DNA from: Pedobacter sp. MR2016-24
GTDB lineage: Bacteria; Bacteroidota; Bacteroidia; Sphingobacteriales; Sphingobacteriaceae
Assembly: GCF_026239655.1 (NCBI RefSeq)
Contig: NZ_JAPIVO010000002.1
Span: 744,001 to 808,000, forward strand
Direction of reading: 5' to 3'
DNA: 64,000 bases
Of this stretch, positions 2,592-48,330 are shown in pieces; within the stretch, counting starts at the first letter, position 1; each line of letters begins with the position of its first letter. The notes beneath the pieces are model-generated. The model was not told the DNA's origin and ran no database searches. It saw nothing but the letters and a program-made list of their open reading frames with translations. The translations under genes were made by a program, and so were the position numbers.

Positions 2592-3713
2592 ATGAAGAAA
2601 TCACTGATTTCAATCCTGATGCTGCTACCTTTTATGGTAGCAGCTCAAAAAAACTATACCTTAACCGGAAAATTATCAGACTTAAAAGGACCGGCCAGGG
2701 CTTACCTGGTTACTTTACAAAACGGGGCCTGGAAGGAAACCGACTCTGTAGAGATTAAGGGTGGAAAATTCCAGTTTACCGGAAAAGTGGAGGAACCACA
2801 AAATGCGCTGATCGCCATCAAACGCTCAGCTGATCAGCAAAGGGATAATCTGAGTTTTTATCTCGAAAATTCCAGGATCACATTTACCGGGAAAGATGCG
2901 ATCAAAGATGCCACAGTAACAGGTTCAGTGTCTGATCGGGAAAACCGGGAATTAGCTGCATTGGTTACGCCGATTACCAATAAAATCATGAAGATTCAAA
3001 ATGAGTTTACTAAAGATCATGGCGTTGTAGAAGGAAAAACTGTAGCACAGAAAAAAGAGGCACAAGATAGCCTGACCAGCCATGTAGCACAGATCAAGGC
3101 TATCCAGCAGAAATTTGTAGAGACTCACCTGAACTCGTTTATGGGTTTATATACATTCAACCACTCTGTTCTGGGCAGTCACTTTGACTCTGCAGCTGTA
3201 AAACCATTGTTCTACAAATTCTCTCCCCAGCTGCAGTCGTCCCCACTGGGTCAACTGGCTATCAGCAGGATCTTAGCCAATGAAAAGCGTGCGGTGGGTG
3301 TGAAAATCATCGATTTCGAACAAACAGCTATTGACGGGAAACTATTCAACATCAAATCCTTAAGAGGCAAATATGTATTTATAGATTTTTGGGCGAGCTG
3401 GTGTTACTGGTGCCGTAAAGAAAACCCCAATGTAATCAAAGCCTATGAGCAACTGAAAGACAGGAATCTGGAAATTGTAAGTGTGTCTTTTGATGAAAGT
3501 AAAGCTTCCTGGGAAAATGCGGTAAAAGAAGATAAACTACCCTGGTTACAGGTGTCTGACCTGAAGGGAATGAAAGTAAAAGAAGGATTGGCCGCCATGT
3601 TAGACATTAAAGCCATACCACAAAATTTATTGATCAGTCCGGAAGGCGTGATTATCGCTGCGAATCTTCGCGGTGAAGATCTGCCAGCAAAATTAGCTGC
3701 CTTTATTAAATAA
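2592..3713 (+). CDS. Secreted TlpA-like thioredoxin-fold protein, unusual CYWC active site
   Basis: A 373-residue protein with a signal peptide (ISILMLLPFMVAAQ). Its N-terminal beta-rich region is of the DUF4369 type (YTLTGKLSDLKGPARAYLV), then a helical linker, then a thioredoxin/TlpA domain from about residue 235. The active site is at C271/C274 in WASWCYWCRKENP. The cis-proline loop is visible as KAIPQNLLIS. It probably works in the periplasm or at the surface as a disulfide reductase or isomerase. The Tyr-Trp pair between the cysteines differs from the GP or VP of its paralogues in this window. It is the fourth gene of the SusCD operon and is followed 12 bases later by a paralogue. Confidence 0.88.
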   Translation: MKKSLISILMLLPFMVAAQKNYTLTGKLSDLKGPARAYLVTLQNGAWKETDSVEIKGGKFQFTGKVEEPQNALIAIKRSADQQRDNLSFYLENSRITFTGKDAIKDATVTGSVSDRENRELAALVTPITNKIMKIQNEFTKDHGVVEGKTVAQKKEAQDSLTSHVAQIKAIQQKFVETHLNSFMGLYTFNHSVLGSHFDSAAVKPLFYKFSPQLQSSPLGQLAISRILANEKRAVGVKIIDFEQTAIDGKLFNIKSLRGKYVFIDFWASWCYWCRKENPNVIKAYEQLKDRNLEIVSVSFDESKASWENAVKEDKLPWLQVSDLKGMKVKEGLAAMLDIKAIPQNLLISPEGVIIAANLRGEDLPAKLAAFIK

Positions 3714-3724
3714 TTTGTATCACC

Positions 3725-4858
3725 ATGAACATAAAAATCACAATTGCTGCCTTGTTATTGTTGCCTTCAGGCTTCTGCATGGCACAGGATAAATTTGAAA
3801 TATCAGGAAAATTATCTGCTGCGGGAACAGACCGTATGGTCATGCTGAATTACATCAACAGCGAAGGTAAAAATGCTAAAGACAGTGCCCTTGTTAAAAA
3901 CGGGAAGTTTAGCCTGAGCGGCACCACTTCTTTCGGGAATAAGGCTTATCTGAGTTTAGTTCCGGTGAAAAAAGCGGTTAACGAAACCCGCAGATCATCC
4001 GACGACCAATTGTTTTACCTCGAAAAAGGCAATTATAAAGTCGCGGGAAAAGACAGCATGGCTACAGCTGTGATTACCGGAGCACAGGCGCAGACAGATT
4101 TTCTGAATTACACTGCCCAAACACAGCGTTTGCTGTCCCGGTTTAAAGAAATTACCGAGCGGTTCACCAAAGTATGGTATGCTAAAGTGAAAGATACGGT
4201 AGCGATTAAAACGATACAAGCTGAGGCCAGACCTGTGCATGCTAAAATTGAAAAATCTTTAGATTCTTTTATCTACAGTCACCCCGATTCCTACGTAAGT
4301 GTAGACCTGATTGCAGAAAATAAAACTGCGGTTATTGATCCGGTAACTTTTGAGCCTTTTTACAGTGTATTGAGTCCGAGAGTGCTGGCTAGTTTTAACG
4401 GTCAGAAGTTAACTGCTAAATACAATAAGGCAAAGCTGTTCGGCATAGGAAAAACGATCGACTTTACCCTGCCGGATAAAAACGGCAATGAATTCAAGCT
4501 CTCTTCCTTAAAAGGTAAATATGTGCTGGTAGATTTCTGGGCAAGCTGGTGTGTGCCTTGTCGTGCCGAAAATCCTTTCCTGTTAAAAGCATACAATGAA
4601 TTGAAAGAAAAGAATTTTGAGATTGTTGGTGTTTCTCTGGATGACACTAAAGCAGCCTGGTTAAGAGCCGTTGAACAGGACAAATTGCCGTGGGCTCAGG
4701 TAAGCGATGTGAAAGGATTCAAAACTGAAATTGCCCTTCGTTTTGGTATCAGTGCTATCCCTCAAAATGTATTGATTGGTCCTGATGGAAAGGTAATTGC
4801 AAAAAACCTCAGGGGTGAAGATGTCAATAAAAAGATTGCAGGCTATATTGTTAATTAG
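3725..4858 (+). CDS. Secreted TlpA-like disulfide oxidoreductase (CVPC)
   Basis: A 377-residue paralogue of the preceding gene, with the same plan: signal peptide (ALLLLPSGFCMAQ), DUF4369-like N-terminus (FEISGKLSAAGTDRMVML), helical middle, thioredoxin domain. The active site is C276/C279 in WASWCVPCRAENP, and the cis-proline loop is SAIPQNVLIG. Most likely a periplasmic thiol-disulfide oxidoreductase. It is the last gene of the first SusCD operon: a strong terminator follows at 4896. It resembles the TlpA protein at 17326 at least as closely as its direct neighbour. The protein or nutrient it acts on is not known. Confidence 0.9.
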   Translation: MNIKITIAALLLLPSGFCMAQDKFEISGKLSAAGTDRMVMLNYINSEGKNAKDSALVKNGKFSLSGTTSFGNKAYLSLVPVKKAVNETRRSSDDQLFYLEKGNYKVAGKDSMATAVITGAQAQTDFLNYTAQTQRLLSRFKEITERFTKVWYAKVKDTVAIKTIQAEARPVHAKIEKSLDSFIYSHPDSYVSVDLIAENKTAVIDPVTFEPFYSVLSPRVLASFNGQKLTAKYNKAKLFGIGKTIDFTLPDKNGNEFKLSSLKGKYVLVDFWASWCVPCRAENPFLLKAYNELKEKNFEIVGVSLDDTKAAWLRAVEQDKLPWAQVSDVKGFKTEIALRFGISAIPQNVLIGPDGKVIAKNLRGEDVNKKIAGYIVN

Positions 4859-4895
4859 CATTATATCAGCTGTCTAAATTTTTTTATTTACCTGT

Positions 4896-4933
4896 AAAGA
4901 GGCTGCCTCAATCTTGAGGCGGCCTCTTTTTGT
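4896..4933 (+). terminator. Rho-independent terminator of the first SusCD operon
   Basis: A near-perfect inverted repeat, arms 4896-4911 and 4914-4929, with one G-U type mismatch and a very short loop, followed by a T run. It lies 38 bases after the stop of the last TlpA gene and before the next promoter. Confidence 0.85.
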
Positions 4934-4953
4934 ATATCTATATGAATATTTTC

Positions 4954-4983
4954 TTCTTTTATGTATTTAACTACGTATATTTG
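4954..4983 (+). promoter_or_regulatory. Bacteroidota-type promoter of the GNAT-MarR pair
   Basis: TATATTTG at 4976-4983 is a perfect TAnnTTTG -7 element. Exactly 19 bases upstream is TTC (4954-4956), one base off the -33 TTG. The GNAT start codon is 23 bases downstream of the -7 element. Confidence 0.6.
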
Positions 4984-5005
4984 AACATAAATAATATATG
5001 GAATT

Positions 5006-5506
5006 ATGAACACAATCAATTTAACCATCGCGCCTATATTTAATGATGACTGTACCGAAATCATCGACCTGATATTACCCATACAGCAAATTGAATTTAA
5101 TGTACCCATAACTATTGAAGGGCAGCCAGACTTGCTTGATATCGAATCCAATTACCAGCAGGGGGGTGGAAATTTCTGGGGTGCAAAGATCGACGGCAAA
5201 TTAGTCGGAACCATTGCCCTGATCAATACCGGGCACAATGCATGCGCCCTGCGAAAAATGTTTGTGAAAAAGGAATTCAGAGGTAAGGAATATGGCATTG
5301 CACAGAAATTACTGGAAACCCTGCTGACTTTTTGCCGTGCCCAGCATATCACCGATGTATACCTGGGCACTGTGGATATCTTAAAAGCTGCACATCGCTT
5401 TTATGAGAAAAATGATTTCAATAGCATAGCTGTAGCTGACCTCCCTGCTTATTTTCCAAGGATGATGGCCGATAATAAGTTTTATCACTTACATTTAAGC
5501 ATTTAA
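5006..5506 (+). CDS. GNAT-family N-acetyltransferase
   Basis: A 166-residue cytosolic acyl-CoA-dependent transferase. Motif A is clear at about residues 84-105 (LRKMFVKKEFRGKEYGIAQK), with the R-G-K-E-Y-G-I-A pyrophosphate-binding loop. A later segment with HRFYEKNDF is the usual motif B end of the fold. A MarR regulator starts 11 bases after the stop, so the pair is likely one operon, perhaps with the regulator controlling the transferase. The substrate is not predictable. Confidence 0.88.
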   Translation: MNTINLTIAPIFNDDCTEIIDLILPIQQIEFNVPITIEGQPDLLDIESNYQQGGGNFWGAKIDGKLVGTIALINTGHNACALRKMFVKKEFRGKEYGIAQKLLETLLTFCRAQHITDVYLGTVDILKAAHRFYEKNDFNSIAVADLPAYFPRMMADNKFYHLHLSI

Positions 5507-39424: not shown

Positions 39425-39552
39425 AAAAAGGATAATAAAATCTTTTTATCAGCTACTTCCTCCGGATCAATAAAATGCATCATTCAGTACCTGAAAGCGT
39501 GCGTATATCAGCATACCAGAGGTAATAAGACAGGGAGGTGTATTCTCTTTTT

Positions 39553-39582
39553 TTGCTTAAGCAAATCAGATGCATATCTTTA
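39553..39582 (+). promoter_or_regulatory. Bacteroidota-type promoter of the hybrid kinase
   Basis: TTG at 39553-39555, exactly 19 bases, then TATCTTTA at 39575-39582 (TAnnTTTG with one mismatch). It places transcription start near 39590, so the kinase must start at a downstream ATG (39610 or 39628), not at a GTG at 39538. Confidence 0.55.
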
Positions 39583-39627
39583 CACCACAGTATAGTGGAT
39601 ATTTGTTCAATGCTGTTATGTTCAATT

Positions 39628-42600
39628 ATGATTTTAAGCTCTTCTGAAAGTAAAGAACAATTTTTGTCAGGTGGCGGAGAGATGGGTAAACTTATCCGCT
39701 CAATGGATTGGTCTTCTACTGCCTTAGGACCAATCGAAACCTGGCCACAAAGCCTGCGTACGTCGGTCAGTTTGTGTCTTTCTTCTACGTTTCCAATTCT
39801 GATTGCATGGGGACCAGACAGGATACAAATCTATAATGACAGTTATAGACCAATCTGCGGTGCCAAACATCCACAATCTATGGGGATGCCCTTCCGGGTT
39901 TGCTGGGAAACCGCTTTACCCGTAGTGGGTGATGCCTTTGAGCGTGGCGGAGAAGGAGAAGGAACGTATATTAATGATCAACGCATGTTCCTTGACCGCT
40001 ATGGTTATATTGAAGAGGCCTGGATGACCTTCTCTTTTGCTCCGATCCGGGATGAATCTGGCGGAGTAGGCGGGATATTTCATCCAATTACCGAAACCAC
40101 AGCAAAAATGCTGAGTGGCCGGCGAACCCAGGTATTAAAGGAGCTGGGTGTGGTACTGGCGAAAGCCAAAAGTATTGAGGAAATTGGCAGTTTTACACAA
40201 AAAAATTATCCGGAATATTTATTGGATATTCCCTTTATACTGATTTATAAATTTGATGCGCAAACAGGAATTGCTCACTTAATCAATTCTGCAGGATTAG
40301 CTGACGGCACTGCTTTAGCACCTGTAACAGTGGACTTGTCTGTAGAAAAAAGTCCCTGGCCATTTGCGGAAGTCAACAATTCTGGTCAGCTAGAAGAGTT
40401 GAATCACCTGCAGGAACGTTTCGGCACGTTTAACTGCGAGCCCTATGCTAACGGGCCTGAATCAGCAATGATCTTACCGCTTAAAATCAGCGGACAAGAA
40501 GATGTGTTCGGTTTTGTAGTAGCAGGTGTAAGTGCCTCCAGGGCGCTGGACAGCGATTACCATAATTTTTATGACCAGCTGGCGAATACCTTTAACACTG
40601 CCGTATCCAATGTATATGCTTTTGAACAGGAACAAAAGAGAGCAGAAGCACTGGCTGCGATAGACCGCTCAAAAACTGCTTTCTTCAGCAATGTAAGTCA
40701 TGAATTCCGAACCCCGCTTACTTTGATACTCGGGCCATTGGATGATTTGCTTAACCGCAGTCAGTTGCCTGCAGATATACAGGAAACTGTTCAATCTGCA
40801 CAGCGCAATGCACTCAGACTATTAAAACTGGTTAATAATTTACTGGATTACAGTCGTGTGGAAGCCGGCCGTACCCAGGCTGCTTACCAAAAAATAGATC
40901 TGGCAGAGTTAACTACTGACCTTGCCAGCAGTTTTCGCTCTATTATAGAAAAAGCGGGTATGCAATTGATAGTGGACAGTCCGGCGGTGGATGGGGATGT
41001 TTATGTCGACCGCCAGATGTGGGAAAAGATTGTTTTAAATCTACTCTCCAATGCTTTCAAATATACGCTTGAGGGAACAATTACACTTACGCTTTTCTGT
41101 CAGGGGAATTCTGCTGTACTGCAAGTTTCAGATACAGGGGTGGGAATCCCCCAAAAAGAGTTACCGCATATGTTCGAACGTTTTCACCGGGTGGAAAACT
41201 CCGCAGGAAGAACGCATGAGGGTACAGGTATAGGACTTTCCTTAGTATATGAGCTGGTACAACTTCATGGTGGGCAGATCAGTGTGAGCAGCATAGAAGG
41301 AAGCGGATCAACTTTTACTGTGGTTATACCAATGGGTAAAGCCCATCTTCCGCCGGAACTCATTCAAAGCCATCCTAAAGAAATAGATACCAGTGCACAG
41401 AAAACTTCTTTTATAGAGGAAGCCTCCGGTCTTTTACAAACGGAAAGTCAACCTGTCGCAACTCATACTGAAGCAACTGCTGGTTACTCTTATCCTGATG
41501 TTGAAACCGACGAAAATACACGCATTCTCATAGTGGATGATAATGCAGATATGCGTGCATATCTGAACAGAATTCTGGAGCCATATTTTACTACAGCGAT
41601 AGCTGTAAACGGTCAAGACGCACTTTCAAAGATCCCGCATTTTGAACCGGATCTGGTGTTAAGTGATATCATGATGCCGGTAATGGATGGTAAAACTATG
41701 CTGGAACAGATCAGACAGGAACATGCGACGATGCGCCTGCCAGTAATTTTTTTATCGGCTCGTGCCGGTGAAGAAGCAAGGATAGACGGACTGGAAGCGG
41801 GAGCTGATGATTACCTGGTGAAACCATTTTCAGCGTCAGAGTTGCTCACAAAAATCAGTACCCAGATCAAAATTACTAAAGCACGTAACCGTGCAGAACA
41901 GCAGCTCCGCAACCTGATTACCGAAGCACCGGTAGCCATTGCTATCTACCGCGGGAAAATGCATACTATTGAAATGGCGAATGACAGGATGCTGCAATAC
42001 TGGGGCAGGACAGCAAATGAAGTCATTGCACAGCCTTTGCTTAATGCTCTTCCTGAACTGGCTTCACAGGGATTCAAAGAAATGATGGACCATGTTTATC
42101 AGACAGGGGAACGTTTTATATCGGGCGACATACCAGTTCAACTGGTTCGTTTTGGCAAAAAAGAGGAGCTCTTTATCAACCTGACTATTGAGGCCCTGCG
42201 TGAAGATGATGAAAGAGTAACCGGTATGATGGCTGTAGCCGCAGATGTAACTGCACAGGTTTTGGCCCGCCATGAACTGGAACGTGTAAATGATACCCTC
42301 AAACTTGCTGTTGATGCCGCAGCAATGGGTATATGGCGGTCGGATTTACTTACAGGTAAGCTGATCATTTCTGAGCGCGCCAGGATACTGCATGGATTTG
42401 CGCCTGATGTGGAACTCACATTTTTGGGCGCTGCTGAAATGGTCGTTCCTGAACACAGGGAAAAACTTTTATCCGCTATTGCGCAGGCAGTTGAAAACAA
42501 AGGCAGCTTTAATGAGGATTATCAAATCACTCCTATAGGAAGCAATAAGCCAAAATGGCTGAATACCAGTGGTATGGCGGAGTTGAATGAGAAGGGAGAA

Positions 42601-43329
42601 GCAATTTCCGTGATTGGAACTATATTGGATATTACTGAAATTAAAGAAGACAGTCAGCGTAAAGATGATTTTATTGGTATGGTAAGCCATGAACTTAAAA
42701 CACCGCTGACGACACTGAGCGGCTTTACGCAGGTACTGCAAATGCGGGCCCGGAAATCGGATGACAGCTTTGCTACTGATAAACTGGACAGGATATTAAG
42801 ACAGGTGAAAAAGATGGGTACCATGATCAATGGTTTTCTAAATGTATCCAGATTACAGTCAGGGAAAATTGTTCTGGCTACCACCAAATTTGATCTTAAT
42901 GCCCTGATCAGTGAAATTATCGACGAAACGGAGCTTTCCCATAGTCAGCATCAGTTAGTTTTTGAGCACATGGAAGCCATTGAAGTAGATGCCGACCGTG
43001 ATAAAATTGGCTCTGTGATATCTAATTTATTGAGCAATGCGATTAAATATTCACCAGACAATAAATTGATTAAAATCAGTTCTAGTGTTGAAAATAGCAG
43101 TGTAACCCTTGCCATCCATGACCAGGGAATGGGTATTAAACCCGAAGATCTGGAGAAACTATTTGAACGTTTTTACAGGGTGGAAAGCAATAATATGCAG
43201 CATATCTCGGGATTCGGGATAGGACTTTATTTAAGTTCAGAGATTATTGAACGGCATGGCGGGAGGATATGGGCGGAGAGTGAACTGGGTAAAGGCGCCA
43301 CATTTTTCTTTAGCCTTCCCGTCTCCTGA
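39628..43329 (+). CDS. Hybrid histidine kinase with two complete kinase cores and a central receiver
   Basis: About 1233 residues from ATG 39628 (39610 is an alternative). No membrane helix. Order: PAS-like N-terminus (about 15-160, MGKLIRSMDW then PILIAWGPDRIQIYNDS), GAF-like domain (about 165-335), HisKA with FFSNVSHEFRTPLTL near 355 and HATPase with NLLSNAFKYT near 471 and GTGIGLSLVYEL near 531, receiver (about 632-745, ILIVDDNADMRAYL, SDIMMPVMDG, VKPFS), two PAS domains (about 758-1005), then a second HisKA (GMVSHELKTPLT near 1015) and HATPase (NLLSNAIKYSP; GFGIGLYLSSEI near 1195). The two cores may form an internal relay. Confidence 0.93.
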   Translation: MILSSSESKEQFLSGGGEMGKLIRSMDWSSTALGPIETWPQSLRTSVSLCLSSTFPILIAWGPDRIQIYNDSYRPICGAKHPQSMGMPFRVCWETALPVVGDAFERGGEGEGTYINDQRMFLDRYGYIEEAWMTFSFAPIRDESGGVGGIFHPITETTAKMLSGRRTQVLKELGVVLAKAKSIEEIGSFTQKNYPEYLLDIPFILIYKFDAQTGIAHLINSAGLADGTALAPVTVDLSVEKSPWPFAEVNNSGQLEELNHLQERFGTFNCEPYANGPESAMILPLKISGQEDVFGFVVAGVSASRALDSDYHNFYDQLANTFNTAVSNVYAFEQEQKRAEALAAIDRSKTAFFSNVSHEFRTPLTLILGPLDDLLNRSQLPADIQETVQSAQRNALRLLKLVNNLLDYSRVEAGRTQAAYQKIDLAELTTDLASSFRSIIEKAGMQLIVDSPAVDGDVYVDRQMWEKIVLNLLSNAFKYTLEGTITLTLFCQGNSAVLQVSDTGVGIPQKELPHMFERFHRVENSAGRTHEGTGIGLSLVYELVQLHGGQISVSSIEGSGSTFTVVIPMGKAHLPPELIQSHPKEIDTSAQKTSFIEEASGLLQTESQPVATHTEATAGYSYPDVETDENTRILIVDDNADMRAYLNRILEPYFTTAIAVNGQDALSKIPHFEPDLVLSDIMMPVMDGKTMLEQIRQEHATMRLPVIFLSARAGEEARIDGLEAGADDYLVKPFSASELLTKISTQIKITKARNRAEQQLRNLITEAPVAIAIYRGKMHTIEMANDRMLQYWGRTANEVIAQPLLNALPELASQGFKEMMDHVYQTGERFISGDIPVQLVRFGKKEELFINLTIEALREDDERVTGMMAVAADVTAQVLARHELERVNDTLKLAVDAAAMGIWRSDLLTGKLIISERARILHGFAPDVELTFLGAAEMVVPEHREKLLSAIAQAVENKGSFNEDYQITPIGSNKPKWLNTSGMAELNEKGEAISVIGTILDITEIKEDSQRKDDFIGMVSHELKTPLTTLSGFTQVLQMRARKSDDSFATDKLDRILRQVKKMGTMINGFLNVSRLQSGKIVLATTKFDLNALISEIIDETELSHSQHQLVFEHMEAIEVDADRDKIGSVISNLLSNAIKYSPDNKLIKISSSVENSSVTLAIHDQGMGIKPEDLEKLFERFYRVESNNMQHISGFGIGLYLSSEIIERHGGRIWAESELGKGATFFFSLPVS

Positions 43330-43481
43330 AGCGCTGTGGACTGATGAGCTTATTTTGCTACCAGCTAACTTGCTTGTCAGCAATTCCAAAAGATAGCCGA
43401 TTTTAGGTTTTACAGATGACATTACTGTGTTCAAACAGGTTAACAGAAAAAAAATATAATGCGCTATATTTGCAATGTCTG

Positions 43482-43820
43482 ATGATGAAGCTATTAAGGA
43501 ATCAATTGTTAAAAAACGTATTAGGCGTGGTGCTGCTCAGTATCATGCTCCTGAAAGTATGCGCCTTTTCAATTTCTTATCTTTCATCTTCTCTTAATCC
43601 CCTCGCTATTGAAAAAAGTGCAGAGGAAGGAAAAGACATCAAAGAAGAAGCTTTCGATAAAAAAGACAAGAAAATGCTCACATTTGGTTTTTCCTGTATA
43701 GATCACGGACATGATTTATGGGTTAACCATTTACCACTCAGCATGTATTCCTACATCATGCAAATAGGGAGTCATCCGCTAAAGACTGTCCCAACACCGC
43801 CTCCCGACCAGCTCGTATAA
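43482..43820 (+). CDS. Small membrane or secreted protein before the exporter genes
   Basis: 112 residues from ATG 43482, just after a perfect -7 element TATATTTG (43466-43473). N-terminal hydrophobic helix LKNVLGVVLLSIMLLKVCAF, then a polar Lys/Glu stretch (EKSAEEGKDIKEEAFDKKDK) and a His/Pro-containing C-terminus (DHGHDLWVNHLPLSMYSYIM; PTPPPDQLV). No known family. It is 99 bases before the ABC membrane subunit on the same strand, and may be a small accessory to that exporter. Confidence 0.55.
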   Translation: MMKLLRNQLLKNVLGVVLLSIMLLKVCAFSISYLSSSLNPLAIEKSAEEGKDIKEEAFDKKDKKMLTFGFSCIDHGHDLWVNHLPLSMYSYIMQIGSHPLKTVPTPPPDQLV

Positions 43821-43919
43821 ATTATTTGTATTTGCGCTCAGGCAATACATTTCTAATCCCGTATGCAGTACGCTGCCTTCGGTTCATGAAATAATTTATC
43901 AACTCATATTCTCATCAGA

Positions 43920-44924
43920 ATGAAGAAACATCATACTGCCGGAGCCCCAACGCCCTGGCAAAGACTCGTACGTATACTTTACTACGAGCGTTCTACCATC
44001 AATTATATTTACGTCTACGCGATGCTGATTGGCTTGATTGGCCTTACCCTGCCATTGGGTACAAGTGCAGTTTTCAACTTGCTGTCTAATGGGGCGATGT
44101 ACAGCTCTACCTACATTCTTATTGCTGTTATTTTAATTGGTATCGTGATCGGCGGACTGCTGCTGATCGGCCAGCTTACCCTGGTGGAGGTTATTGAGCA
44201 GAAGATATTTGCTAAAGCGGCACTTGAATTTGCCTTCCGTTTACCGCGGATAAAAAAGCAGGCACTGGAAGGTGAGAACCCCTCAGAACTTGTTAACCGC
44301 TTTTTTGATATCTTAACCATACAAAAGGGACTAACGAAATTACTTGTAGATATTGTAGCTGCTGCGGTGCTGATCTTTTTCAGCGTTATCCTGTTATCCT
44401 TCTATCACCCGGTATTTATGGCCTTTGGCATTTTTGTCCTGCTGGTAATTGTATTGGTTGTGGTCTTGTATTACAGGCGTGGGGTGCAAACCAGTATTGA
44501 AGAATCGGAATATAAATATGAAGTGGTGGCCTACCTGGAGGAAGTAGCTGGTGATCTTGATGCCTACCGGCATAATGCGGCTAAGTGTCAGGAAGTCATT
44601 ACCCGCACAGATGAAATAACTGCTAATTACATTCAGGCAAGAAATGATCATTTTAGCATCCTTAAAAGGTTTTTTGTGAGTGCCGTAGCCATGCGGACCA
44701 TATTGATGGGTTCCCTGCTTTTATTGGGTTCCTATTTTGTTGTAGAGCGTGAAATGACATTCGGACAGTTTGTAGCCGCGGAAGTGATTATTGTTCAGAT
44801 CAGTTATGCAATAGAAAAACTGATGACCAATTTAAATACAGTTTTCGATATGGTAACTGGTAGTGAAAAGCTTGCCGTAGTAACCGATCTGGAAATAGAG
44901 GAAGGAGATACGATACATGGCTAA
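43920..44924 (+). CDS. ABC exporter membrane domain lacking an ATPase domain
   Basis: 334 residues: five to six membrane helices (INYIYVYAMLIGLIGLTLPL; YILIAVILIGIVIGGLLLIG; VAAAVLIFFSVILLSFYHPV; FGIFVLLVIVLVVVLYY; AMRTILMGSLLLLGSYFVV) in the layout of a type-I ABC exporter. The coupling-region segment ENPSELVNRFFDILTIQKGL is present. The protein ends GSEKLAVVTDLEIEEGDTIH, exactly where the ATP-binding domain of a half-transporter would start: no Walker A or LSGGQ is found. It overlaps the HlyD gene by 8 bases. How it is energised is open. Confidence 0.88.
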   Translation: MKKHHTAGAPTPWQRLVRILYYERSTINYIYVYAMLIGLIGLTLPLGTSAVFNLLSNGAMYSSTYILIAVILIGIVIGGLLLIGQLTLVEVIEQKIFAKAALEFAFRLPRIKKQALEGENPSELVNRFFDILTIQKGLTKLLVDIVAAAVLIFFSVILLSFYHPVFMAFGIFVLLVIVLVVVLYYRRGVQTSIEESEYKYEVVAYLEEVAGDLDAYRHNAAKCQEVITRTDEITANYIQARNDHFSILKRFFVSAVAMRTILMGSLLLLGSYFVVEREMTFGQFVAAEVIIVQISYAIEKLMTNLNTVFDMVTGSEKLAVVTDLEIEEGDTIHG

Positions 44925-46278
44925 GATGAGTAAGAATCTAACCCAGATCAAAAACTGGGAAGAACTGTCTGTTCAGACCAACAGTAAAATTCTAAAGGCA
45001 AAAGGCCCCAGAGTATTAGGAAAGGTGATGCTGATTTTGCTTTTTCTTTTTATAGTATTGCTGCTGCTGCCCTGGAGGCAAACGATACCAGGGCGTGGTA
45101 CTGTCACTGCCTTAAGACCTGAAGACAGGCCTCAGACTGTACAAAATCAAATTGGTGGTCGTATTGAACACTGGGCCGTGCGCGAAGGGCAGGAAGTAGA
45201 AAAAGGGGATACTATTCTGGTGATATCAGAAACGAGTCAGTCTTATTTTGATCCGGAGTTACCCGCACGTTTAAATGAGCAGCTCGATGCAAAACGCGGC
45301 AGTGAAACTGCGGCATCCAAAAAAATGGACGCCACAAATTTGCAGATCAGGGCTTTGAGCGATGGGTTGCGTTATCAGCTCAGTGCTGCAGAGAATAAAG
45401 TAAGACAGGCACAAAACTACGTTCGGATTGACAGTGCAGACTTGCTTGCGGTTCAGCAGTTTTACGAAACTACCAAAGTACGTCTGGAGCGTTATGAAGC
45501 TGGTTATAAAAATGGGCTCTTCTCCTTAACCGATATTGAAACGCGCAGACTAAAATTGCAGGAAGACAGGGCAAAAGTAATCAGTCAGCAAAACAAACTG
45601 AGTAATTCCGCTCAGAACCTGCTTAACTCTAGTATAGAACTGGACAATATCAGGGCTAAATATCAGGAGTCGCTCGCCAAAGCACAGTCAGATATGAGTT
45701 CAGCAGTTTCGAGCAGGGCCAGTGCACAGGGCGATATTGCCAAGCTAAGGAATGATATTTCAAACATTAATATCAGGCGCGGTCTGTACATTGTCAGGGC
45801 ACCGCAAAGCGGATACGTGGTAAAAACACTCAAAGCCGGTATAGGCGAGAATATCAAAGAAGGGGAGTCGGTAGCAACCTTACAACCTAAATCGCCATTA
45901 GTTGCCGCCGAGTTATATGTGAGTGCTATGGATGTGCCGTTGATATTGGATACCAGTGATGTCCGCCTCCAATTTGAAGGCTGGCCTTCCGTACAGTTTT
46001 CGGGCTGGCCATCTGTTGCTGTCGGTACTTTTGCAGGAAAGATTTCGGCAATCGACCGTATTAGCAGTACCGGAGGTAAGTATAGATTACTGATCAGACA
46101 AACTAGTCCGGTTCCAACAAAAGACGAACCCTGGCCGCCACAACTAAGACAAGGTTCAGGCGTATATGGCCGTATTATTCTGAGGTCAGTACCATTATGG
46201 TACGAAATCTGGCGTCAGCTTAACGGTTTCCCGCCAAGTCTGGAAAAAGAGCCAACCAGTAGTAAAGAGAAAAGTTAA
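44917..46278 (+). CDS. HlyD-family periplasmic adaptor
   Basis: 453 residues: short cytosolic tail, one membrane helix (VMLILLFLFIVLLLLPW), barrel-sandwich/lipoyl half (GRIEHWAVREGQEVEKGDTI), long alpha-hairpin coiled coil (about 110-290), second lipoyl half (NIRRGLYIVRAPQSGYVVKT), and beta-barrel region (QFEGWPSVQFSGWPSVAVG). It connects the inner-membrane transporter with the TolC duct. The 8-base overlap with the preceding ABC gene implies coupled translation. Used as a type-I secretion or macrolide-exporter type adaptor. Confidence 0.92.
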   Translation: MAKMSKNLTQIKNWEELSVQTNSKILKAKGPRVLGKVMLILLFLFIVLLLLPWRQTIPGRGTVTALRPEDRPQTVQNQIGGRIEHWAVREGQEVEKGDTILVISETSQSYFDPELPARLNEQLDAKRGSETAASKKMDATNLQIRALSDGLRYQLSAAENKVRQAQNYVRIDSADLLAVQQFYETTKVRLERYEAGYKNGLFSLTDIETRRLKLQEDRAKVISQQNKLSNSAQNLLNSSIELDNIRAKYQESLAKAQSDMSSAVSSRASAQGDIAKLRNDISNINIRRGLYIVRAPQSGYVVKTLKAGIGENIKEGESVATLQPKSPLVAAELYVSAMDVPLILDTSDVRLQFEGWPSVQFSGWPSVAVGTFAGKISAIDRISSTGGKYRLLIRQTSPVPTKDEPWPPQLRQGSGVYGRIILRSVPLWYEIWRQLNGFPPSLEKEPTSSKEKS

Positions 46279-46294
46279 CGATGGAGGTGATGAG

Positions 46295-47743
46295 ATGAAT
46301 AGATATTTCAGGAGATTTCCTGCCACATGCATACTGATATTGCTGCTCCTGATCACAGCCGGGAGCTTTGCACAAACCAAACCTGTAAACGATACATCGA
46401 GCGTATTTGCGCTTGAAGATCTGCAGGTATTAGTTTTCAGGTACCATCCTATAGTAAAACAGGCAGCTTTGCTCAGCGAATCTGCCCGGGCAAATGTATT
46501 GCAGTCGCTCGGCTATTTTGATCCAGCCCTGAAAGCCGGTTTTAACCGCAAATTATTCGGTGACACAGAATATTACAATAACTGGAACAGTGAACTTAAA
46601 ATTCCGCTATGGCTTGCCGGTGCAGATTTAAAAGTTGGATATGACCGTAGTGTAGGTACTTATACCAACCCGCAAACGCGTACATCACCTGAAGGTCTGT
46701 CTGGCGTCGGTTTGAGTATCCCCCTGGGACAGGGCTTGCTTATTGATGCCCGTCGCAGTACCTTAAGGCAGTCGAAAATAATGGTACAGTACGCTGAAGC
46801 CGAACAGTTAAAACAAATTAACAATGCCTGGTATGCTGTTGTTAAAGATTACTGGAACTGGTATTATGCTTACAGACAGTTTGCTTTGGTTAATGAAGGC
46901 GTAGAACTTGCCGAACGCAGATTTAAAGCTTTAAGCAGGCAAACGGCAATTGGTGATAAACCTACTATTGATTCTGTGGAAGCTTATATTACCGTACAGG
47001 AGCGTATCATTCAGAAAGAAAAAACGAAGATAGAATTGCAAAACGCGCGATTGATATTATCTAATCACCTGTGGAGTGAGCAAGGTACCCCGCTGGAGTT
47101 GCCCTTAAATGCGGCACCTCAGCATATAGATGAAAATATAACTAAGCCAGGGCAATCCGTATTGGATACCTTAATGGGCCAGGCTGCGAACCAGCATCCT
47201 GAACTGCTCAAATTACAAATTAAAAGTGGTCAGCTGGCTATTGAAAGGAGTTACCGCCAGGAGATGCTGAAGCCCAAACTGAATGTTAGCGGTACTTTAA
47301 TATCCAACAGGACAAGCTTTAGCGGTAATGTGCCTGACTATTACGATTTTAACTGGAGTAATTATAAGCTTGGTGTTGAGTTTGCATTTCCCCTTTTTTT
47401 ACGTGCAGAGCGTGGAAAACTGCGCGAAGTAAAGATCAAACAGAGAGAGCTGGATTACGACCTGCAGCAAACCGGGCGTGAGATCAGGAATAACATTCTT
47501 GCCTCTTATAACGATCTTTCTGCCTATTCTTCACAACTTGATGTGCAGGTGCAAAGTATCCGCAATCAGCAGACCTTATTGAAGGGGGAAACTCAGAAAT
47601 TTGATTTGGGAGAAAGCACATTGTTTTTGATCAATAGTCGCGAGTCAAAACTGATAGACATGAAAATCAAACGCGAAAGTATGATCTCCGGATATCAAAA
47701 AACACTGGCCGAACTGTATTATAAAGCCGGTACACGACAATAG
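46295..47743 (+). CDS. TolC-family outer-membrane efflux protein
   Basis: 482 residues with signal peptide (CILILLLLITAGSFAQ). Two long repeat units of helical hairpin typical of TolC: LQVLVFRYHPIVKQAALLSE, then DPALKAGFNRKLFG (strand region), and NVSGTLISNRTSFSGN and LRAERGKLREVKIKQRELDY in the second half. Forms the outer-membrane channel of a tripartite export system with the preceding HlyD and ABC genes, 16 bases downstream of the adaptor. The hairpin at 47758 follows its stop. Confidence 0.91.
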   Translation: MNRYFRRFPATCILILLLLITAGSFAQTKPVNDTSSVFALEDLQVLVFRYHPIVKQAALLSESARANVLQSLGYFDPALKAGFNRKLFGDTEYYNNWNSELKIPLWLAGADLKVGYDRSVGTYTNPQTRTSPEGLSGVGLSIPLGQGLLIDARRSTLRQSKIMVQYAEAEQLKQINNAWYAVVKDYWNWYYAYRQFALVNEGVELAERRFKALSRQTAIGDKPTIDSVEAYITVQERIIQKEKTKIELQNARLILSNHLWSEQGTPLELPLNAAPQHIDENITKPGQSVLDTLMGQAANQHPELLKLQIKSGQLAIERSYRQEMLKPKLNVSGTLISNRTSFSGNVPDYYDFNWSNYKLGVEFAFPLFLRAERGKLREVKIKQRELDYDLQQTGREIRNNILASYNDLSAYSSQLDVQVQSIRNQQTLLKGETQKFDLGESTLFLINSRESKLIDMKIKRESMISGYQKTLAELYYKAGTRQ

Positions 47744-47757
47744 TCAACCTAAGCTCG

Positions 47758-47791
47758 CAGGCCCCCGGGTTCATACCAATCCGGAGGCCTG
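47758..47791 (+). terminator. Hairpin after the exporter operon
   Basis: CAGGCCCCCGG (47758-47768) pairs with CCGGAGGCCTG (47781-47791), one mismatch, 12-base loop. It is 15 bases after the TolC stop. No T run follows, so it may terminate weakly or protect the 3' end. Confidence 0.6.
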
Positions 47792-47946
47792 TATGCAGAG
47801 CGTATTTAAGATTACTATTTATAGGGTTGTTCTTTGTAAGATAGTTAAGATTGGACGGAAGTGAAATTCGAATATTTTTTTAGTTTTGTGTCCAAACAAA
47901 AAACATGTTTTAAGGGTTTCTGAACTAATACCTGTATTATTAAATA

Positions 47947-48330
47947 ATGAATAAACGAATATGTGTTCTTGAGGACACCACAGAGATCTTTGAGATCATA
48001 AAAATTGTGCTCGAAGAGGAAGAATATGAGGTTTTTGGTTTTGAGACTGTATCAGCTTTCAAGGCAAATGTAAACCTCCTCTCTCCGGATCTTTTTTTAC
48101 TGGATGTAATGCTTCCTGATGGTAATGGAATTGATGTTTGCAGAGCGCTAAAATCTGCTGAAGACACTAAACATATCCCGGTGGTAGTGATGACTGCAAA
48201 TTCGAAAATCGCTACGATGAAAGAAGACTGTACCGCGGAAGATTTTATAGCCAAACCATTTGATATTGATCACCTGGCTGCTATAGTTAACCGATTGATC
48301 AATCGCAATCAATTGCAACCTGCTTTGTAG
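47947..48330 (+). CDS. Single-domain response regulator
   Basis: 127 residues, one receiver domain only: acidic pocket with ICVLEDTTEIFEII, phospho-acceptor Asp in FLLDVMLPDG, and the switch Lys in FIAKPFD. No output domain, so it would act by protein-protein contact or pass phosphate. It is encoded after the hybrid kinase and exporter operon, from which it is separated by a hairpin and about 200 bases, so a link to the kinase is a guess. Confidence 0.9.
   Translation: MNKRICVLEDTTEIFEIIKIVLEEEEYEVFGFETVSAFKANVNLLSPDLFLLDVMLPDGNGIDVCRALKSAEDTKHIPVVVMTANSKIATMKEDCTAEDFIAKPFDIDHLAAIVNRLINRNQLQPAL

Follow-up and report, generated by a model that had tools for sequence, protein, structure and literature searches.

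In a 64,000-nucleotide stretch of the genome of Pedobacter sp. MR2016-24 (contig NZ_JAPIVO010000002.1, positions 744,001 to 808,000; hereafter the window), we analyzed an operon that encodes a membrane subunit of the ATP-binding cassette (ABC) exporter type, a HlyD-type adaptor and a TolC-family channel. Judged by sequence, the 334-residue membrane subunit is a complete HlyB-type ABC-exporter membrane domain without a nucleotide-binding domain (NBD). We put the probability at roughly 0.53 that the operon encodes a proton-driven tripartite exporter which has abandoned the use of ATP and the NBD of which was deleted once. In such a machine, an inner-membrane transporter of ABC fold would work together with the HlyD-type adaptor and the TolC channel. 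Its ancestor would be an ABC system resembling type 1 secretion, and its work would no longer consume ATP. The ATPase motifs have eroded in related lines while the membrane domain stayed strongly constrained; in the line leading to Pedobacter and its relatives, the whole NBD would have been deleted in a single event. We infer a dimer operating by alternating access, its coupling to protons and the direction of transport. The proposal of proton drive is based on the resemblance of conserved charged residues to the case of SbmA, and on the ability of NBD-less MsbA to work with a pH gradient.

The operon comprises the following features.
43920-44924, + strand: ABC gene, NBD-less ABC-exporter membrane subunit, 334 amino acids (PF00664 match, AlphaFold2 model, HlyB fold match)
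44917-44924, + strand: overlap of the ABC and HlyD genes, 8 bases (from the open reading frame coordinates)
44917-46278, + strand: HlyD/EmrA-type periplasmic adaptor, 453 amino acids (HlyD_3, E = 3.2e-10)
46295-47743, + strand: TolC-family outer-membrane channel, 482 amino acids (OEP, PF02321, E = 2.9e-36, in two stretches)

A membrane domain that ends at the NBD linker

ABC_membrane (PF00664) was the only Pfam family to exceed its cut-off in the ABC protein (41.8 bits against 28), with coverage of model positions 4-272 of 274, and ABC_tran was not among the five Pfam families listed up to E = 1. Residues 7-327 align with residues 135-453 of HlyB, and the protein stops at the NBD linker, in agreement with a first-pass annotation of this DNA according to which the subunit ends where the NBD should begin. 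The same annotation had stated that the operon contains neither a Walker A nor an LSGGQ motif, and indeed we observed no Walker A or signature pattern in any of the six frames of positions 43300-48000. An exporter-NBD profile gave no match at E <= 1e-3 to any open reading frame (ORF) of at least 50 residues in the window. Coordinates and Pfam matches also bear out the 8-base overlap with the HlyD gene and the TolC gene behind it, which begins 16 bases past the HlyD stop; the overlap suggests translational coupling. The source genome (about 5.8 Mb in 21 contigs) contains 66 PF00005 matches and 13 further PF00664 matches. The nearest PF00005 match on the same contig lies about 207 kb upstream, and there is none downstream to the contig end.

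An AlphaFold2 model of the ABC protein, based on an alignment of 42 sequences (predicted local distance difference test score (pLDDT) 71, predicted template modeling score (pTM) 0.59), contains an elbow helix (residues 12-21) and six long transmembrane (TM) helices with long extensions of TM2 to TM5, and no additional TM helices. Its top structural match was HlyB in the HlyB/D complex (8dck_A; Z 27.4, 2.4 A over 318 residues). Two coupling helices were assigned by DSSP on the model.
44256-44267, + strand: coupling helix 1, residues 113-116, between TM2 and TM3
44556-44570, + strand: coupling helix 2, residues 213-217, between TM4 and TM5

The short form is a conserved, single clade

We compared the window with 52 loci from named genomes, which were retrieved by six peptide patterns of the short protein and hence favor close relatives. 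The first-pass annotation had considered the case that close relatives all carry an attached NBD and only this copy is short; the opposite was found. The 50 closest loci (63-93% identity; the closest of all are Pedobacter species) all encode the short form, with ORFs of 330-371 amino acids from the first possible start and of 330-340 amino acids in 44 of them, and only the two remaining loci, at 37-39% identity, encode a form of 553 amino acids. Similarly, in a search of 99 genomes including that of the window, matches of at least 68% identity were all in frames of 334-380 codons and matches of at most 45% identity were all in frames of at least 514 codons. Nineteen of 59 same-genus relatives had a short and five a long form, and none had both, numbers too small to be meaningful. 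The short form is present in the Sphingobacteriaceae Pedobacter, Mucilaginibacter, Sphingobacterium and Olivibacter as well as in Chitinophaga (Chitinophagaceae) and Dyadobacter (Spirosomataceae), and it was traced down to 49.5% identity in further genomes.

The partner genes accompany the short form. Counting the window, a HlyD gene is next to the ABC gene at all 51 NBD-less loci and a TolC gene is present at 50 of them (not found at our locus L065); both partners are carried by 49 of the 50 closest named relatives. In the window and at 46 of the 50 loci, the HlyD frame has its first ATG within the ABC gene (position -8 at 35 loci, -11 at 10). No other gene family occupied a fixed place at most NBD-less loci, and in flanks of 8 kb, or less at contig ends, the exporter-NBD profile found nothing at 48 of the 50 named short loci. 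Each of the two others (L072 and L081) has one match on the opposite strand, at distances of 4.8 and 6.5 kb. Three genomes, those of Pedobacter sp. R20-19, Pedobacter sp. AJM and Pedobacter psychrotolerans, contain two NBD-less operons each, in opposite orientation and about 22-24 kb apart (locus pairs L043 and L063, L049 and L064, and L050 and L065).

Median ratios of nonsynonymous to synonymous substitution rates (dN/dS) were 0.034 for the ABC gene (13 pairs), 0.039 for HlyD (12 pairs) and 0.050 for TolC (10 pairs), omitting saturated pairs and those with dS of at least 2 (three and one, respectively, of 17 ABC pairs). All 61 NBD-less sequences grouped as one clade when 142 membrane domains were placed in a tree, with a support of 98 in the SH-like approximate likelihood ratio test (SH-aLRT), the tree having been built by a quick method with this support alone and no bootstrap. 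It contained 61 distinct short sequences and left out the distinct short copies L015, L018, L025 and L026. The NBD-less clade adjoins L122, a protein of 728 amino acids. Two short proteins, L105 and L133, had been candidates for separate NBD losses, which we rejected given their placement in the same clade. On these sequence comparisons, the ABC gene is under strong purifying selection and not decaying, in keeping with the doubts about random decay voiced in the first-pass annotation. Because the 61 short sequences form one clade, the loci are conserved and dN/dS is low, the simplest account is a single loss of the NBD, after which the shortened protein was retained.

NBD-bearing relatives have eroding ATPase motifs

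A profile search of 296 Bacteroidota genomes placed the family in 75 of them, with 76 matches. We read 68 of these (omitting the window's own and those in genomes G330, G241, G199, G230, G207, G376 and G340) together with 12 more sequences from the 99-genome search, from which the long members in G017, G097 and G098 were left out. Together with loci from the preceding comparisons these made up 92 loci, and removal of identical sequences gave 79 NBD-bearing relatives and four further short sequences. The membrane domains of the NBD-bearing relatives are 26-45% identical to the window protein.

Motifs were counted in an alignment of these 79 sequences with eight ordinary exporters of the source genome. 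Walker A was present in 75 of the 79 relatives and in all eight controls. By contrast, the Q-loop Gln (10/79), the signature in the relaxed form xSxGQ (2/79) and the Walker B Asp (20/79) were rare in the relatives and present in every control. The catalytic Glu (21/79 against 6/8) and the H-loop His (15/79 against 7/8) were also rarer in the relatives than in the controls. SGGQ occurred in the C-terminal part of none of the relatives and of five controls, and LSGGQ was found in none of the 79. Most losses are in a core group of 64 proteins (545-735 amino acids). Apart from Walker A, 43 of these lack all five features, and not one has the catalytic Glu and the H-loop His together. In a group of 15 (583-832 amino acids; L144-L158), the Walker B Asp and the Glu are present in all and the His in 13. 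L122, the closest sister of the NBD-less clade, has lost all these motifs, including the Ser/Thr of Walker A.

Sequence constraint is distributed accordingly between the two domains. In the core group, the membrane domain is more conserved than the NBD in 2016 of 2016 pairs (median identities 0.50 vs. 0.32), and in the group of 15 this is so for 81 of 105 pairs. The corresponding figures for ordinary exporters are 9 of 465 pairs (31 MsbA-like proteins), 14 of 120 pairs (16 PCAT-like proteins) and 0 of 28 pairs (the eight exporters of the source genome); the MsbA-like and PCAT-like sets include source-genome seeds that are each counted twice, as themselves and as L173 or L203. We examined 83 ABC genes of the family, and a HlyD gene follows 82 of them, L145 being the exception; TolC is present at 71 of the 73 family loci whose stretch reaches far enough (not L145 and L152). 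The retention of both partners next to eroded NBDs suggests that the operon was kept while its ATPase decayed. Many full-length family members may also no longer be ATP-driven. Our ordering of these events relies solely on lost motifs being unlikely to return. We dropped an order derived from the tree since the placement of L144-L158 is unreliable, with two outgroup rows on very long branches and a midpoint-rooted drawing.

Six proteins of 716-832 amino acids (L029, L031, L122, L144, L148 and L152) have an additional N-terminal region of 150-250 amino acids, which is missing in the NBD-less clade too; in L122 and L148 it received no Pfam name at E <= 0.01. A distant relative is encoded on an alphaproteobacterial plasmid of Sphingopyxis sp. 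113P3 (NZ_CP009453.1; L171, positions 3686-5113), with no NBD-profile match after the membrane domain and an IS3-family transposase gene at the end of the region. The exporter family may therefore extend past Bacteroidota.

Charged residues are conserved within the membrane

Among 140 family members, six alignment columns within the model-derived membrane spans are charged in at least 95% of the sequences, namely 140, 144, 259, 288, 299 and 300. For comparison we used 50 ordinary exporters (30 MsbA-like, 14 PCAT-like and six of the source genome), which taken together have no such column; the 14 PCAT-like proteins alone have one, at position 53. The residues concerned, together with two glutamates at the inner end of TM2, are encoded at the following positions.
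44187-44198, + strand: E90 and E93, inner end of TM2 (alignment counts)
44694-44696, + strand: R259, basic, TM5 (K/R in 140/140 family members vs. 0/50 ordinary exporters)
44781-44819, + strand: TM6 segment with E288, E299 and K300 (charged-column counts)

A charge of the same sign is present at column 140 in 139 of 140 family members and in no ordinary exporter, and at column 144, the weakest of the six, in 139 of 140 and in 14 of 50. An acidic residue occupies position 288 in 139/140 against 0/50 and position 299 in 139/140 against 2/50, and K/R occupies position 300 in 137/140 against 4/50. Position 90 is acidic in all 140 family members and in seven of 50 ordinary exporters. Position 93 separates the two forms of the family, with Q in 61 of 64 core NBD-bearing proteins and E in 60 of 61 NBD-less ones. 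Mean column identity within the NBD-less proteins is 0.78 in TM6 and 0.74 in TM2, compared to 0.66 overall.

Several NBD-docking residues have changed

Another NBD that docks on the membrane domain should keep the docking surface under constraint. We therefore counted columns that are at least 85% conserved in the core NBD-bearing set and retained in fewer than half of the NBD-less proteins, and these amounted to 6 of 9 in the coupling-helix windows and 15 of 77 elsewhere (one-sided Fisher test, p = 0.006). At 90% the counts were 5/7 and 13/68 (p = 0.007) and at 95% 3/5 and 8/52 (p = 0.045). With an NBD-bearing clade as the test group, a control gave 1/10 and 3/70, and against the reference set of that control the NBD-less clade gave 6/10 and 14/70 (p = 0.013). 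The residues conserved in NBD-bearing relatives and kept in fewer than half of the NBD-less members are Y120 and P122 near coupling helix 1, and W205, E208, R211 and F216 near coupling helix 2. Relative to the mean of each group, coupling helix 2 is conserved at 0.66 in NBD-less and at 0.85 in NBD-bearing proteins.

A profile of the family NBD was searched against 60 genus genomes; 47 candidates out of 58-151 were scored per genome, and the matches listed do not include the long member of G017. Scores of 235-302 bits were reached in five genomes, none of them NBD-less; in four of these the match was a long member already known, and in G028 it was a fragment at the end of a contig. The other matches listed scored no more than 184 bits, in frames of at least 469 codons, and no detached copy was seen among them. 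The first-pass annotation had suggested looking for a separate NBD gene with conserved synteny, and none was found consistently near the family loci: other NBD-like ORFs lie nearby at five of 83 loci, are of differing kinds and form no pattern. Nearby ORFs at L154 and L156 (953 and 987 amino acids) were rejected as partners because they look UvrA-like from their first residues.

Discussion

To account for a conserved ABC membrane domain without an NBD, the first-pass annotation had offered an ATPase supplied in trans, a different energy source or a structural role. Another energy source is probably to be favored over an ATPase in trans, given that the sister NBDs are degenerate, that several docking residues have changed and that no NBD gene was found to accompany the operon; the trans and structural options are less likely.

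Several observations weigh against a proton-driven exporter. The intramembrane charges are older than the loss of the NBD, with only E93 particular to the NBD-less clade, and for this reason they may serve folding or substrate binding. The docking test comprises few positions, in windows that we chose around modeled coupling helices, and the model itself is of a monomer and of moderate confidence. Unlike in SbmA, the coupling-helix scaffold is still present. Moreover, coupling helix 1 with its flanks (residues 111-120) is relatively better conserved in the NBD-less proteins (0.88 of their own mean) than in NBD-bearing ones (0.55). It appears to have taken on new residues and to keep them, so that a new partner could be involved. 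Finally, with Walker A kept in nearly all NBD-bearing relatives (75/79), ATP binding may still matter in these proteins.

The conservation of coupling helix 1, along with the adjoining cytoplasmic part of TM3, the best conserved region tested (mean column identity 0.85), would suit a stand-alone NBD protein that docks on the coupling helices and supplies the ATPase in trans. Some sugar importers share ATPases, the model retains an elbow helix as well as the two coupling helices, and 66 PF00005 matches are available in the source genome. Nevertheless, we consider this arrangement unlikely. All sister NBDs that we read are degenerate, and a working ATPase would therefore have needed to be regained. 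The residues that have changed include coupling-helix positions conserved in NBD-bearing relatives. In addition, no NBD ORF was found at 48 of 50 named loci and the two others have one each, far off on the other strand, nor was a detached family NBD seen among the matches listed for the 60 genus genomes, a search that a divergent NBD could escape. A slightly less doubtful alternative is that the membrane domain has ceased to pump and serves to assemble HlyD and TolC, as an anchor, channel or gate with passive or regulated flux. The erosion of the NBD suggests that ATP-driven work was dispensable in much of the family, and the energy source of the exporter is so far an inference. However, the conservation of TM6 and TM2 and the charged intramembrane residues exceed what an anchor would be expected to need, and in the known systems HlyD-type adaptors work with energized pumps.

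The window protein might also be one half of a heterodimeric ABC exporter whose full-length partner half-transporter is encoded elsewhere, for instance by one of the 13 other genes with PF00664 matches in the source genome. Heterodimers of this type in which one ATP site is degenerate do exist, TmrAB among them (PMC8277102). Such a partner would bring only one NBD, however, and no second ABC-exporter gene lies consistently near the 83 family loci or anywhere in the window, which makes this reading improbable. A truncated pseudogene or sequencing artefact can be rejected almost outright. A frameshift could cut one gene in one draft genome, but the short form has the same length at all 50 close loci, forms one clade, evolves with a dN/dS of about 0.03 and contains the first ATG of the HlyD frame at nearly all of them.

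The SbmA-like peptide transporters (SLiPTs; SbmA/BacA) are among the closest known systems. SbmA is described as NBD-less and as driven by protons by means of a glutamate ladder that its NBD-bearing relative YddA already has in part. The SLiPTs are proposed in the same source to descend from a full-length ABC protein of the YddA line by NBD loss, to have lost the coupling and elbow helices, to have gained TM0 helices and to import peptides (PMC13316013). The window protein, too, is an NBD-less ABC-exporter-like membrane domain with conserved acidic residues (E90, E93, E288 and E299 in the family), which may or may not line a cavity as the glutamate ladder does. According to the model it differs from the SLiPTs in keeping elbow and coupling helices and in having no TM0-like helices. 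It also differs in its HlyD and TolC partners and in its nearest named relatives, which are HlyB-, PCAT- and NHLM-like. Pfam SbmA_BacA was not listed for the window protein up to E = 1, with HMMER filters dropping most matches above about 0.1, and SbmA was absent among the best 50 rows of either fold search, which is uninformative either way.

NBD-truncated MsbA (MsbA-MD) transports ethidium and chloramphenicol in a manner dependent on a pH gradient and less efficiently than the full-length protein (PMC4979069). MsbA-MD and LmrA-MD are likewise NBD-less exporter membrane domains, but they are artificial constructs, whereas the window system is natural and under selection. With type 1 secretion (HlyB-HlyD-TolC), the operon shares the three-gene make-up and a membrane domain that superposes on HlyB. 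It differs in that the window protein has neither an NBD nor an N-terminal domain ahead of the elbow helix, and in that LSGGQ is missing from all 79 NBD-bearing relatives. Judged by sequence, the system has the layout of type 1 secretion but lacks the ATPase that defines such exporters. EmrAB-TolC is a proton-driven tripartite pump of the major facilitator superfamily (MFS). The window system would resemble it in joining secondary transport to a HlyD-type adaptor and TolC, and differs in that its inner-membrane protein has the ABC-exporter fold and not that of the MFS. By sequence, the membrane domain is nearest in NCBIfam and the PDB to NHLM/PCAT proteins (TIGR03796, TIGR03797, ComA and PCAT1), from which the window protein is set apart by its score (53.4 bits vs. 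a cut-off of 853.3) and by the absence of a C39 peptidase domain and of an NBD.

The operon may represent a second, independent conversion of an ABC exporter into a proton-driven transporter, here inside a tripartite machine and with intermediates bearing a dying NBD still alive in sister lineages; we rate the chance of this as just short of even. Whether ABC membrane domains possess a built-in ion-coupled cycle has so far been argued from artificial truncations of LmrA and MsbA and from a single natural family, SbmA/BacA. The family described here provides a natural series within one phylum and one operon, in which catalytic residues are kept, lost, or gone along with the NBD, each with HlyD and TolC. 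Such a series allows direct tests of how a primary becomes a secondary transporter and of which residues take over. In Bacteroidota, annotation of a gene as an ABC transporter ATP-binding protein does not guarantee that its product is an ATPase. We found no recognizable description of the NBD-less family in the open-licence PubMed Central literature, which is not proof of its being unpublished.

Adaptor, flanking genes and a small upstream protein

The HlyD protein scored 60.6 bits against TIGR01843, under the cut-off of 208.65. Its model (pLDDT 74, pTM 0.37) predicts one hydrophobic helix toward the N terminus (residues 30-50), a split lipoyl domain, a long helical hairpin (residues 115-286) and further strands. 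The best PDB matches were EmrA (4tko; E = 4.8e-15, TM-score 0.36) and HlyD (5c22), with low TM-scores. The window operon is flanked by genes for a hybrid sensor kinase (39538-43329) and a receiver-only protein (47947-48330), relatives of which have no fixed position at other NBD-less loci.

Upstream of the ABC gene lies one further ORF.
43482-43820, + strand: small upstream protein, 112 amino acids, with an N-terminal hydrophobic segment and a C-terminal TPPP motif (homologues upstream at other loci)

Its start is at 43416 or 43482 and its end at 43820, and no Pfam or NCBIfam family exceeded the cut-off. The first-pass annotation had thought that this protein may be part of the exporter. In its favor, homologues precede the ABC gene at 30 of 52 distinct NBD-less loci and at none of five NBD-bearing sister loci, in a search of ORFs of at least 45 amino acids within 450 bases. 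Against it, none was found in this search at about 40% of NBD-less loci, including six of Dyadobacter and four of Sphingobacterium, nor beside the second operon in the three Pedobacter genomes that have two. The small protein is therefore at most an accessory part. A diverged second copy with the TPPP tail is encoded away from the operon at L041 (16526-16876, - strand; E = 4.7e-5). Because this copy stands apart, the small-protein family may not be tied to the exporter.

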